Of a DNA stretch of 38,188 nt, positions 14,945 to 17,917 are shown in pieces. The position numbers were made by a program, and so were the translations under genes. The DNA is taken from positions 1 through 38,188 of the forward strand of contig JAGVZL010000012.1 in the NCBI GenBank assembly GCA_018302505.1, given 5' to 3'. The notes below the pieces were generated by a model. It saw nothing but the letters and a program-made list of their open reading frames with translations. It was not told the origin of the DNA and did no database searches. The DNA comes from Candidatus Woesearchaeota archaeon. GTDB taxonomy: Archaea; Nanobdellota; Nanobdellia; SCGC-AAA011-G17; ARS1403. The stretch's first letter is position 1. The number at the start of each line of letters is the position of its first letter.

Positions 14945-17575
14945 TTACTCAACCAAAATACCTGGTTTAAACGGCAAAGCTTTCCCATTATCTTCTTCTA
15001 AAATATCAATTTTTAATTTAAACTCTTTTTGTATATCTAAAGAATTTTCTTTTAAAATTTTAATCTCAGTTTTCCTATCTAAGATAACATCATCCACGCC
15101 TTTTTTCAGTAACATGGGAACTAATTTAGCAATGTCTTTTTCATGCCCTTTAATCATTAAAGTCTGCATAACTTCGCTTTTATTTCTCGAATCTAATTCT
15201 TTAAATTTCCTAAAAGTTTCATATTTCCATTCATCAGCAGTATAGACTTTTAATTTTTTAGGGTTTTCAACTTTAATTAATTTCAAGATAGCATGTAAAT
15301 CAGAGATAAATCCTGAAATAAATTCATCTTCTTTATCTAATTTTTCATCTATTTTATTTTCATAATATTTAGGCCAGATAGCTAAAGAAATATATCCTTC
15401 ATTATGGTATTCGTATAATTCTTCACAGATATGCGGAGCAAAGCAGCTAAAAACAATCAAGAATTTTTTATAAGCATCTTCAAATACTTCTCTAGAAACA
15501 TCTTTTTTAACCTTGCTTAAATAATTTACAAACTCCTGTGCTTTTATCAAAGCTATATTAAAATTAAAACTATCAATATTTTCTCCAGTTTCTTTAATAA
15601 ATTTATTTAATTTGCTGGTTAAATGTTTGTCAAATCTATTGCTCTCGCTTTTGCTTTTATCTTTAAGACCATAAACCCTGTTAATAAATTTATAAGCTCC
15701 TTCTATTCCTTTATCATCCCACTCAACAGTTTTTCCTGGATGAGCTAAAACTAATAAAAATACTCTAACACTATCCACTCCATATTTTCTAATCATTTCA
15801 TCCTGAGTCACAACATTACCTTTGCTTTTGCTCATCTTAGCTCCGTCTTTATACAAAATTCCTTGGGTAAATAATTTAGAAAAAGGTTCATCAAAGTTTA
15901 ATAATTTCATATCCCTTAAAGCTTTTACAAAAAATCTTGCATAAAGTAAATGCAAAACAGCATGTTCTGCCCCTCCAATATACTGGTCAACAGGCATCCA
16001 ATAATTTACACTTTTAATATCAAATGCTCCTTCATTAAATTTATTATTGCAGTATCTTAAAAAATACCAGCTGGAATCAAAGAAAGTATCCATAGTATCA
16101 GTCTCTCTTTCTGCACTTCCTAAACATTTAGGGCATTGAACTTTCAAAAATTCCTTATTCGTCTTCAAAGGATTAGATTTGCCGGTAAATTCAACCTTGA
16201 CAGGAAGTTCTATAGGTAAATCTTCTTCAATAACCGGAACATATCCGCATTTCTTGCACTTAATCATCGGAATCGGAGTTCCCCAATATCTCTGTCTGGA
16301 AATTAACCAATCCCTCAATTTATATTGAACCGTTCCTTCTCCGTATCCCATCTCTTCCAAATAATTAATTATTTCTTTTATAGCTTCAAAATTATTTAAT
16401 CCGTTAAATCTTTCTTCAGAATTGACAATTATTCCGTCATCAATATAAGCTCTAACCATATTCTCGGCATCTAATCCATGCTCTCTAGGCTGTATTACAA
16501 CTTTAACAGGAATTTTATATTTTTCAGCAAATTCAAAATCTCTTTGATCATGAGCGGGAACAGCCATCACAGCTCCTGTCCCATATTCAGCTAAAACAAA
16601 ATTAGCAGTGTAAATAGGAACAGTTTCATTATTAACAGGATTTATTCCGTATCTGCCGATAAAGATGCCTTCTTTTTCTTTGTCATCAGCTGTTCTTGAA
16701 TATTTATCTTCCTTAGAAACTTTTTCTATAAACTTTTTAACCTTATCTTCATATTTAGTCCCTTTAACCATCTCTAAAACTTTAGGATGCTCAGGGGCAT
16801 AAACTAAAAAAGTAACTCCCCATAAAGTATCAGGTCTTGTTGTAAAAACTTGTATTATCTCCTTAGAATCTTTTAGCTTAAAATTAACAAATGTTCCATG
16901 GCTTCTTCCAATCCAGTTTCTCTGCATAATTCTAATTTTTTCAGGCCAGCCGTCTAACTTTTTAATATCTTTTAATAATTCATCAGCATATTTAGTAATC
17001 TTCAAGAACCATTGTTCTAAAGGTTTTATTTCTACAGGGTTATGGCATCTCCAGCAATTCCCCTCTTCAACCTGCTCATTAGCTAGTACAGTACCGCAGC
17101 TATCGCACCAATTTACATTAGCTTTCTTCCTTTCAACTAAACCTTGTTCATAAAATTTTAAGAACAGCCATTGATTCCATTTATAATAATTAACATCACA
17201 GGTTTTTATCACTCTATCCCAATCATAACTATTCCCTAAAGCTTTTAATTGAGAAGTAAAATTCTTTATTGCTTTATCTGTATATTCTTTAGGATGTGTT
17301 TTTTCTTTTATTGCGGCATTTTCAGCAGGCAGTCCAAAAGCATCAAATCCCATAGGATACAAAACATTAAATCCTTTCAGTCTCTTATATCTCGCATAAA
17401 CATCTCCAATAGCATAATTTCTTGAATGCCCCATATGCAAACCCTGACCTGAAGGATATGGAAACATCTCTAAAACATAGCTCTTCTTTTTTTTAGAATT
17501 ATTGTCTACTTTAAAGACTTTATATTTATCCCATTTTTCCTGCCATTTCTTATCTATCTCTAAAAATTGAACCAT
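14945..17575 (-). CDS. leuS: Leucyl-tRNA synthetase, bacterial-type body with archaeal-like C-terminus
   Basis: EMFPYPSGQGLHMGHSRNYAIGDVYAR, NVNWCDSCGTVLANEQV, TRPDTLWGVTFLVYAPEHP, MSKSKGNVV; C-terminus ends KALPFKPGILVE. Confidence 0.95.
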   Translation of the reverse strand: MVQFLEIDKKWQEKWDKYKVFKVDNNSKKKKSYVLEMFPYPSGQGLHMGHSRNYAIGDVYARYKRLKGFNVLYPMGFDAFGLPAENAAIKEKTHPKEYTDKAIKNFTSQLKALGNSYDWDRVIKTCDVNYYKWNQWLFLKFYEQGLVERKKANVNWCDSCGTVLANEQVEEGNCWRCHNPVEIKPLEQWFLKITKYADELLKDIKKLDGWPEKIRIMQRNWIGRSHGTFVNFKLKDSKEIIQVFTTRPDTLWGVTFLVYAPEHPKVLEMVKGTKYEDKVKKFIEKVSKEDKYSRTADDKEKEGIFIGRYGINPVNNETVPIYTANFVLAEYGTGAVMAVPAHDQRDFEFAEKYKIPVKVVIQPREHGLDAENMVRAYIDDGIIVNSEERFNGLNNFEAIKEIINYLEEMGYGEGTVQYKLRDWLISRQRYWGTPIPMIKCKKCGYVPVIEEDLPIELPVKVEFTGKSNPLKTNKEFLKVQCPKCLGSAERETDTMDTFFDSSWYFLRYCNNKFNEGAFDIKSVNYWMPVDQYIGGAEHAVLHLLYARFFVKALRDMKLLNFDEPFSKLFTQGILYKDGAKMSKSKGNVVTQDEMIRKYGVDSVRVFLLVLAHPGKTVEWDDKGIEGAYKFINRVYGLKDKSKSESNRFDKHLTSKLNKFIKETGENIDSFNFNIALIKAQEFVNYLSKVKKDVSREVFEDAYKKFLIVFSCFAPHICEELYEYHNEGYISLAIWPKYYENKIDEKLDKEDEFISGFISDLHAILKLIKVENPKKLKVYTADEWKYETFRKFKELDSRNKSEVMQTLMIKGHEKDIAKLVPMLLKKGVDDVILDRKTEIKILKENSLDIQKEFKLKIDILEEDNGKALPFKPGILVE

Positions 17576-17670: not shown

Positions 17671-17745
17671 GGACTCGTAACTCAGCTTGGATAGAGTGCT
17701 AGCCTTCTAAGCTAGAAGTCGAGGGTTCAAATCCCTCCGAGTCCG
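17671..17745 (+). tRNA. tRNA-Arg(UCU)
   Basis: Full cloverleaf: GGACTCG/CGAGTCC acceptor, ACTC/GAGT D-stem, CTAGC-CTTCTAA-GCTAG anticodon arm, GAGGG-TTCAAAT-CCCTC T-arm. Confidence 0.96.
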
Positions 17746-17825
17746 CTTTATTTTGGATAACTCATAAAATATCTCTTCCGGAAAGAGAAACTCTTTTAAA
17801 TTCTATTATAACCAAATAAATTTAG

Positions 17826-17917
17826 GGGCACGTGTCCAAGTGGTTTAAGGAGACCGCCTGCAGAGCGGTTATGCGCAGGTTCGAAATAATAATATTACGA
17901 AAGTCCTGCCGTGCCCT
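17826..17917 (+). tRNA. tRNA-Cys(GCA) with an 18-nt intron in the T-loop (intron 17886..17903)
   Basis: GGGCACG/CGTGCCC acceptor, ACCGC-CTGCAGA-GCGGT anticodon arm, GCAGG/CCTGC T-stem, U73 discriminator; removing 17886..17903 restores TTCGAAT. Confidence 0.93.

Follow-up and report, generated by a model that had tools for sequence, protein, structure and literature searches.

A predicted bulge-helix-bulge intron at position 59/60 of an archaeal tRNA-Cys(GCA) gene, and its counterparts across the order and class

An interrupted tRNA-Cys gene

The window spans 38,188 nucleotides and corresponds to contig C28 of G000, an archaeal metagenome assembly of 869 kb in 58 contigs with 86% completeness. 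Positions 17826-17917 (+) hold a complete tRNA-Cys(GCA) gene with an 18-nt interruption between positions 59 and 60 (Table 1), and not at the canonical 37/38 site, one nucleotide 3' of the anticodon. The acceptor stem reads GGGCACG/CGTGCCC, a D arm is present, the anticodon arm is ACCGC-CTGCAGA-GCGGT and the variable loop is TATGC. The two strands of the T-stem, GCAGG and CCTGC, are separated by 25 nt instead of the usual 7.

Table 1. Coordinates of the interrupted tRNA-Cys(GCA) gene, its parts and its tRNA neighbour in the window
Feature	Position	Strand	Evidence
5' exon of tRNA-Cys(GCA), nucleotides 1-59	17826..17885	+	sequence; matches exons of the intronless G054 tRNA-Cys
18-nt predicted BHB intron at 59/60, ATAATAATATTACGAAAG	17886..17903	+	sequence, fold; 59/60 introns also in G002, G004 and G042 tRNA-Cys
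3' exon (nucleotides 60-73) with discriminator U73; CCA is not encoded	17904..17917	+	sequence
Anticodon loop CTGCAGA, anticodon GCA	17858..17864	+	sequence; ARAGORN tRNA-Cys(gca) after in-silico splicing (L223)
T-stem 5' strand GCAGG, outer helix of BHB	17875..17879	+	sequence, fold
TTCG, 5' strand of the central helix (nt 54-57), paired to CGAA of the intron at 17898-17901	17880..17883	+	sequence, fold; covariation of base 57 and its partner
5' bulge AAA; predicted cut after second A (17885/17886)	17884..17886	+	sequence; BHB rule
Inner hairpin TAAT-AAT-ATTA	17887..17897	+	sequence, fold
3' bulge AGT; predicted cut after G (17903/17904)	17902..17904	+	sequence; among 80 verified loci, AG^T is the most frequent 3' bulge
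Intronless tRNA-Arg(TCT)	17671..17746	+	tRNA-Arg/tRNA-Cys pair beside LeuRS kept in L089 and L090

The insert can be drawn as a bulge-helix-bulge (BHB), in which a 4-bp central helix (TTCG/CGAA) is flanked by the 3-nt bulges AAA and AGT on opposite strands and followed by a 4-bp inner helix (TAAT/ATTA). The 5' exon pairs with the 3' end of the intron, which is the orientation of archaeal BHB introns. When the whole gene was folded, the T-arm, the central helix and the inner hairpin appeared in both the minimum free energy and the centroid structures (z = -3.8; none of 200 shuffles folded equally well). Shuffling the 18 nt 2,000,000 times recreated the central helix in 1.8% of cases and the full BHB, with four inner pairs in register and the right cut, in 0.035%. 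If each bulge were cut behind its second nucleotide, TTCGAAT would be restored, the T-loop of an intronless orthologue, with ...CAGGTTCGAA joined to TCCTGC... at the predicted exon junction.

ARAGORN missed the gene in the raw window and reported tRNA-Cys(gca) once the 18-nt insert had been removed in silico. Rfam also missed it at the gathering cut-off, a truncated 17.9-bit match being all that was seen. Because both tools failed on the raw window, we used spliced sequences to build two covariance models for tRNA-Cys (R1 and R2). A search of the genome assembly with a tRNA-Cys covariance model turned up no further tRNA-Cys; one could lie in a gap, given 86% completeness. The original prediction, made from the letters of the window, had described the T-stem spacing and the BHB fold, had warned that a standard annotator could miss the gene and had named a second intact tRNA-Cys(GCA), with this copy silent, as evidence against it; the first three are borne out, and the search for the fourth came back empty.

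Other tRNA genes of the same genome also carry inserts. A tRNA-Gly(GCC) at G000:C55:9689-9791 (-) has 33 nt inserted in the D-loop region, and a tRNA-Gln(TTG) at G000:C7:7817-7908 (-) has about 20 nt in the variable loop region; both are candidate non-canonical introns.

Orthologues and splicing genes

Orthologous tRNA-Cys genes were found both with and without the insert. The tRNA-Cys of G054, from the same order, is intronless; its T-arm, GCAGG-TTCGAAT-CCTGC, is the one predicted for the spliced window gene, and the two sequences are identical from the anticodon arm through the T-arm, variable loop included. The nearest named relatives by leucyl-tRNA synthetase (LeuRS) are Nanoarchaeota archaeon OS_PC_MetaG.mb.127 (L089, 76%) and Woesearchaeota NC_groundwater_209 (L090, 63%), and the order LeuRS/tRNA-Arg/tRNA-Cys is common to both and to the window. 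In L090 the tRNA-Cys of this conserved gene order is intronless. The L089 gene has three inserts, one of which is a 27-nt 59/60 intron within GAGGG-TTCA-AAA-TAATC-loop-GATTA-TGAA-AGT-CCCTC; the same intron sequence occurs in G004:C26. Two further tRNA-Cys genes carry 59/60 introns: that of G002, a member of the same family, has 20 nt and the central helix TTCA/TGAA, and that of G042, from another family, has 12 nt (TTCG-AAA-TTCAA-CGAA-AAT), with the central helix TTCG/CGAA and no inner helix. The same site is thus occupied by introns of 12, 20 and 27 nt in three other genomes, and the change from G57-C to A57-U between orthologues is compensatory in the central helix. G001 has, in place of a 59/60 intron, a 30-nt insert that reads as 53/54 with a relaxed motif, and its genus mate G006 has no insert.

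Taken together, relatives with and without the intron, along with the compensatory changes, independently confirm at the level of sequence the predicted exon boundaries, and with them the 18-nt intron at 17886-17903, its non-canonical 59/60 site and the restored TTCGAAT loop that the original prediction had proposed from one gene, together with a comparison of related genomes. Its remark that the intron is close to the minimum length falls, since introns of 12 nt occupy this site in related genomes and 11 nt is the reported minimum for archaeal tRNA introns (PMC4090602). As for the splicing endonuclease, whose presence and class it had left to be checked, an enzyme with an intact triad is encoded, by one gene that is alpha-type by its domains and triad.

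Multiple inserts in tRNA-Cys are seen in L089 (2623-2763, -), L271 and L175. The first insert is almost alike in two different families (ATATTCCCTAAAAGAATAGCTGAAC and ATATTCCAAAAGAATAGCTGAAC), which may reflect an ancestral multi-intron tRNA-Cys.

Both parts of the expected machinery, EndA and RtcB, are encoded in the genome. The one PF01974 gene, G000:C38:16982-17242(-), lies in a 184-aa frame that combines the N-terminal domain PF02778 with a catalytic C-terminal domain carrying an intact Tyr/His/Lys triad. Among solved structures its closest relative by sequence is the catalytic subunit of Nanoarchaeum equitans (3iey_A); the Tyr, His and Lys positions align with this protein and with the M. 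jannaschii EndA (1a79_A). The motif FR(V/I)Y-x9-H...RVAHST(K/R)K, with the same Tyr-His spacing, is kept in 35 EndAs of the group. A match to PF01974 was found in 58 of 61 genomes, with two matches in just one. Among the 26 intron-bearing genomes, 23 have a single match, and the extra ones in G134, G018 and G257 are either a contig-end fragment or weak. The single-contig genome G030 (95% complete) has one EndA beside two verified 59/60 introns. Neither PF01974 nor PF02778 detected a gene for a second, structural EndA subunit in the 86%-complete genome, although a very diverged beta subunit could escape such searches. By its sequence features, the single two-domain gene has the alpha4 pattern. 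RtcB is present at full length.

Introns at 59/60 in the order and class

We scanned 384 genomes of the class with the pattern GGTTCRAA-N(4-34)-YGAA-NN-TCC. In the order (104 genomes) this gave 96 matches, compared with 30 for the reversed pattern; as this control is imperfectly matched in composition, completeness of the T-stem was taken as the main filter. A full 5-bp T-stem surrounds the insert in 80 of the 96 loci, even though the pattern fixes just two pairs, and these 80 verified introns are spread over 49 of the 104 genomes. Before in-silico excision ARAGORN called a tRNA across 4 of the 96 loci, and afterwards across 69, in many isotypes with Ala and Lys most frequent. Excisions of the same length shifted 4 nt upstream or downstream still gave 58 and 45 calls, respectively. 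The gain after excision leaves the exact cut sites unfixed: shifted excision is a weak control for the exact site because most of the loop remains, and exon boundaries therefore rest on orthologues and covariation.

The covariation is strong. Exon base 57 and its intron partner match in 78 of the 80 loci (A-T in 54, G-C in 24, unmatched in 2), and R and Y are independent in the pattern; the Fisher p of about 4e-18 is inflated by phylogenetic relatedness. Matched pairs are nevertheless seen between two tRNAs within a single assembly: in G038, which has 6% contamination, two tRNAs carry 40-nt introns that are identical save for the base facing nucleotide 57. An inner helix of at least 3 bp in the BHB register is present at 34 of 80 loci. 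Moving the 5' strand by one base in either direction, or the 3' strand by one base outward, left such a helix at only 1 to 2 of 80 loci; with the 3' strand moved one base inward, 11 still had it. From locus to locus the insert ranges from 12 to 40 nt within the scanned sizes, and the exon sides are constant. Elsewhere in the class, 30 further loci came from genomes picked for high counts; 29 of them have the full T-stem, and a tRNA was called in 24 after excision and in 3 before. As judged from these sequences, the window intron is no isolated oddity, being one of many at 59/60 across the order and class.

Identical or near-identical introns occupy adjacent tRNA-Asp and tRNA-Lys genes in G059 and G055, which suggests movement or conversion between tRNA genes of the kind described for Thermoproteales (PMC4033280). 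Introns of 38 and 37 nt with similar sequence (CATCAGAACCGAGGTTC...ACCTCCTGA) are found at L280, L281 and L301, in two tRNA-Leu-like genes of G094 and a tRNA-Cys of G017; this likeness suggests intron movement between isotypes.

Pattern matches in class family f23 consist of intronless tRNAs followed by an inverted copy, and were left out as false positives. In this family an inverted T-arm-like copy (GGATTTGAACATCC) lies shortly 3' of the intronless tRNA ends (for example, G300:C21:22982-23021 and G279:C9:20714-20758).

Splicing of the intron and the endonuclease rule

The intron belongs to a known kind, the archaeal BHB tRNA intron, and we are highly confident in reading the locus as a functional tRNA-Cys(GCA) gene whose intron at 59/60 would be spliced by proteins. 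In the precursor, exon nucleotides 54-57 (UUCG) would pair with intron CGAA and leave two 3-nt bulges, EndA would cut after the second nucleotide of each, and RtcB would ligate the exons to give a normal UUCGAAU T-loop. We infer transcription of the gene, cleavage at these exact bonds with subsequent joining of the exons, and a homotetrameric mode of action for EndA.

Three other readings of the locus were considered and rejected. Decay of the gene into a pseudogene, with a T-loop insertion acquired by accident, would explain why standard annotators miss it, and is nevertheless most improbable: every stem is intact, this is the sole tRNA-Cys detected in the assembly, and other genomes have inserts at this site too, with compensatory changes. 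Those genomes speak equally against an assembly or binning artefact, a natural suspicion for a window that comes from a fragmented metagenome assembly, for introns of different sequence stand at the same position in independent assemblies and the neighbouring genes are conserved; we give it almost no credence. Hardly more believable is that the insert is kept in the mature tRNA-Cys as an expanded T-arm. The insert does extend the T-arm into a stable hairpin. However, in tRNA the T-loop contacts the D-loop, and a retained insert would disrupt it; moreover, the insert changes in length between loci as the exon sides stay constant, and it is lacking from an orthologue at the same locus.

Taking the locus as a spliced tRNA-Cys gene, the enzyme deserves separate consideration. 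Published reviews describe alpha4 and alpha2 enzymes as requiring a strict BHB motif and as being paired with one canonical-site intron (PMC4090602, PMC4033280), and (alpha-beta)2 or epsilon2 enzymes as the partners of non-canonical introns (PMC4090602, PMC4033280, PMC6379350). This rule is hard to square with these sequences, in which many non-canonical introns are accompanied by a single gene for alpha-type EndA. Because the window intron departs from the canonical form in its site and not in its motif, it could be a substrate of a strict enzyme; the strain comes from its neighbours without an inner helix, the 12-15 nt introns. It is conceivable, if unlikely, that the intron is real and the enzyme is not a simple alpha4 homotetramer, and that a diverged beta subunit makes it an (alpha-beta)2 of broad specificity. 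The closest solved relative of EndA is, after all, the catalytic subunit of a heteromer, and broad intron positions have been published for (alpha-beta)2 and epsilon2 enzymes (PMC4033280, PMC6379350). Against this, the genomes here have, as a rule, one PF01974 gene, G030 combines near-completeness with one EndA and two verified introns, and the window EndA matches the N. equitans beta chain at 1.5e-12, so that a similar beta would probably have been detected.

We see as evenly balanced the wider proposition that 59/60 introns, widespread in the order and class, apparently mobile between tRNA genes and in many cases of the relaxed hBH form that lacks an inner helix (as short as 12 nt), would be processed by a homomeric alpha-type EndA, which would undo the published association of endonuclease architecture with the position or motif of introns. 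With many T-loop introns beside one alpha-type EndA gene, the EndA/intron co-evolution rule becomes directly testable: can a homomeric enzyme cut non-canonical and relaxed motifs, and how does one such gene serve many of these introns? There is also a practical consequence. Where annotators miss an essential tRNA gene, as those tried did, tRNA counts, completeness estimates and codon-reading inferences can err systematically for such genomes.

Position 59/60 is presumably a known intron site in Crenarchaeota. Non-canonical introns of that group, above all of Thermoproteales, resemble those described here in forming a BHB, in being short, in lying at sites other than 37/38 with up to three per tRNA, and in that similar introns are common to different tRNA species (PMC4033280, PMC8450103); the present group is DPANN, however, with one alpha-type EndA gene in place of the (alpha-beta)2 enzyme with which such introns are associated. 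The canonical 37/38 introns of Euryarchaeota (alpha4/alpha'2 EndA) share the hBHBh' architecture, one two-domain EndA gene and the same triad, and differ in position from the window intron. The ARMAN epsilon2 system (Micrarchaeum) likewise belongs to ultrasmall archaea, and non-canonical introns, among them ones with relaxed motifs, occur there too (PMC4033280, PMC12397907), but EndA here is a two-domain protein of 184 aa, not a three-unit epsilon protomer, and has no insertion between the catalytic Tyr and His. Nanoarchaeum equitans, which supplies the closest solved EndA relative, has split tRNAs, whereas the tRNA-Cys here is continuous with a cis intron. A literature search of partial coverage found no paper on T-loop introns in DPANN archaea, which is weak evidence of novelty.

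Two other genes merit mention. A second RtcB (G000:C22:4289-6890) has an intein-like in-frame insert, with PF01139 matching 49-348 and 347-426 of an 810-aa frame, and one in-frame TAG in its 5' part. For the LeuRS of the window (14945-17575, -), the close matches after a few Nanoarchaeota are bacterial (Chloroflexota, Clostridia), and this bacterial-type look suggests an old gene transfer.
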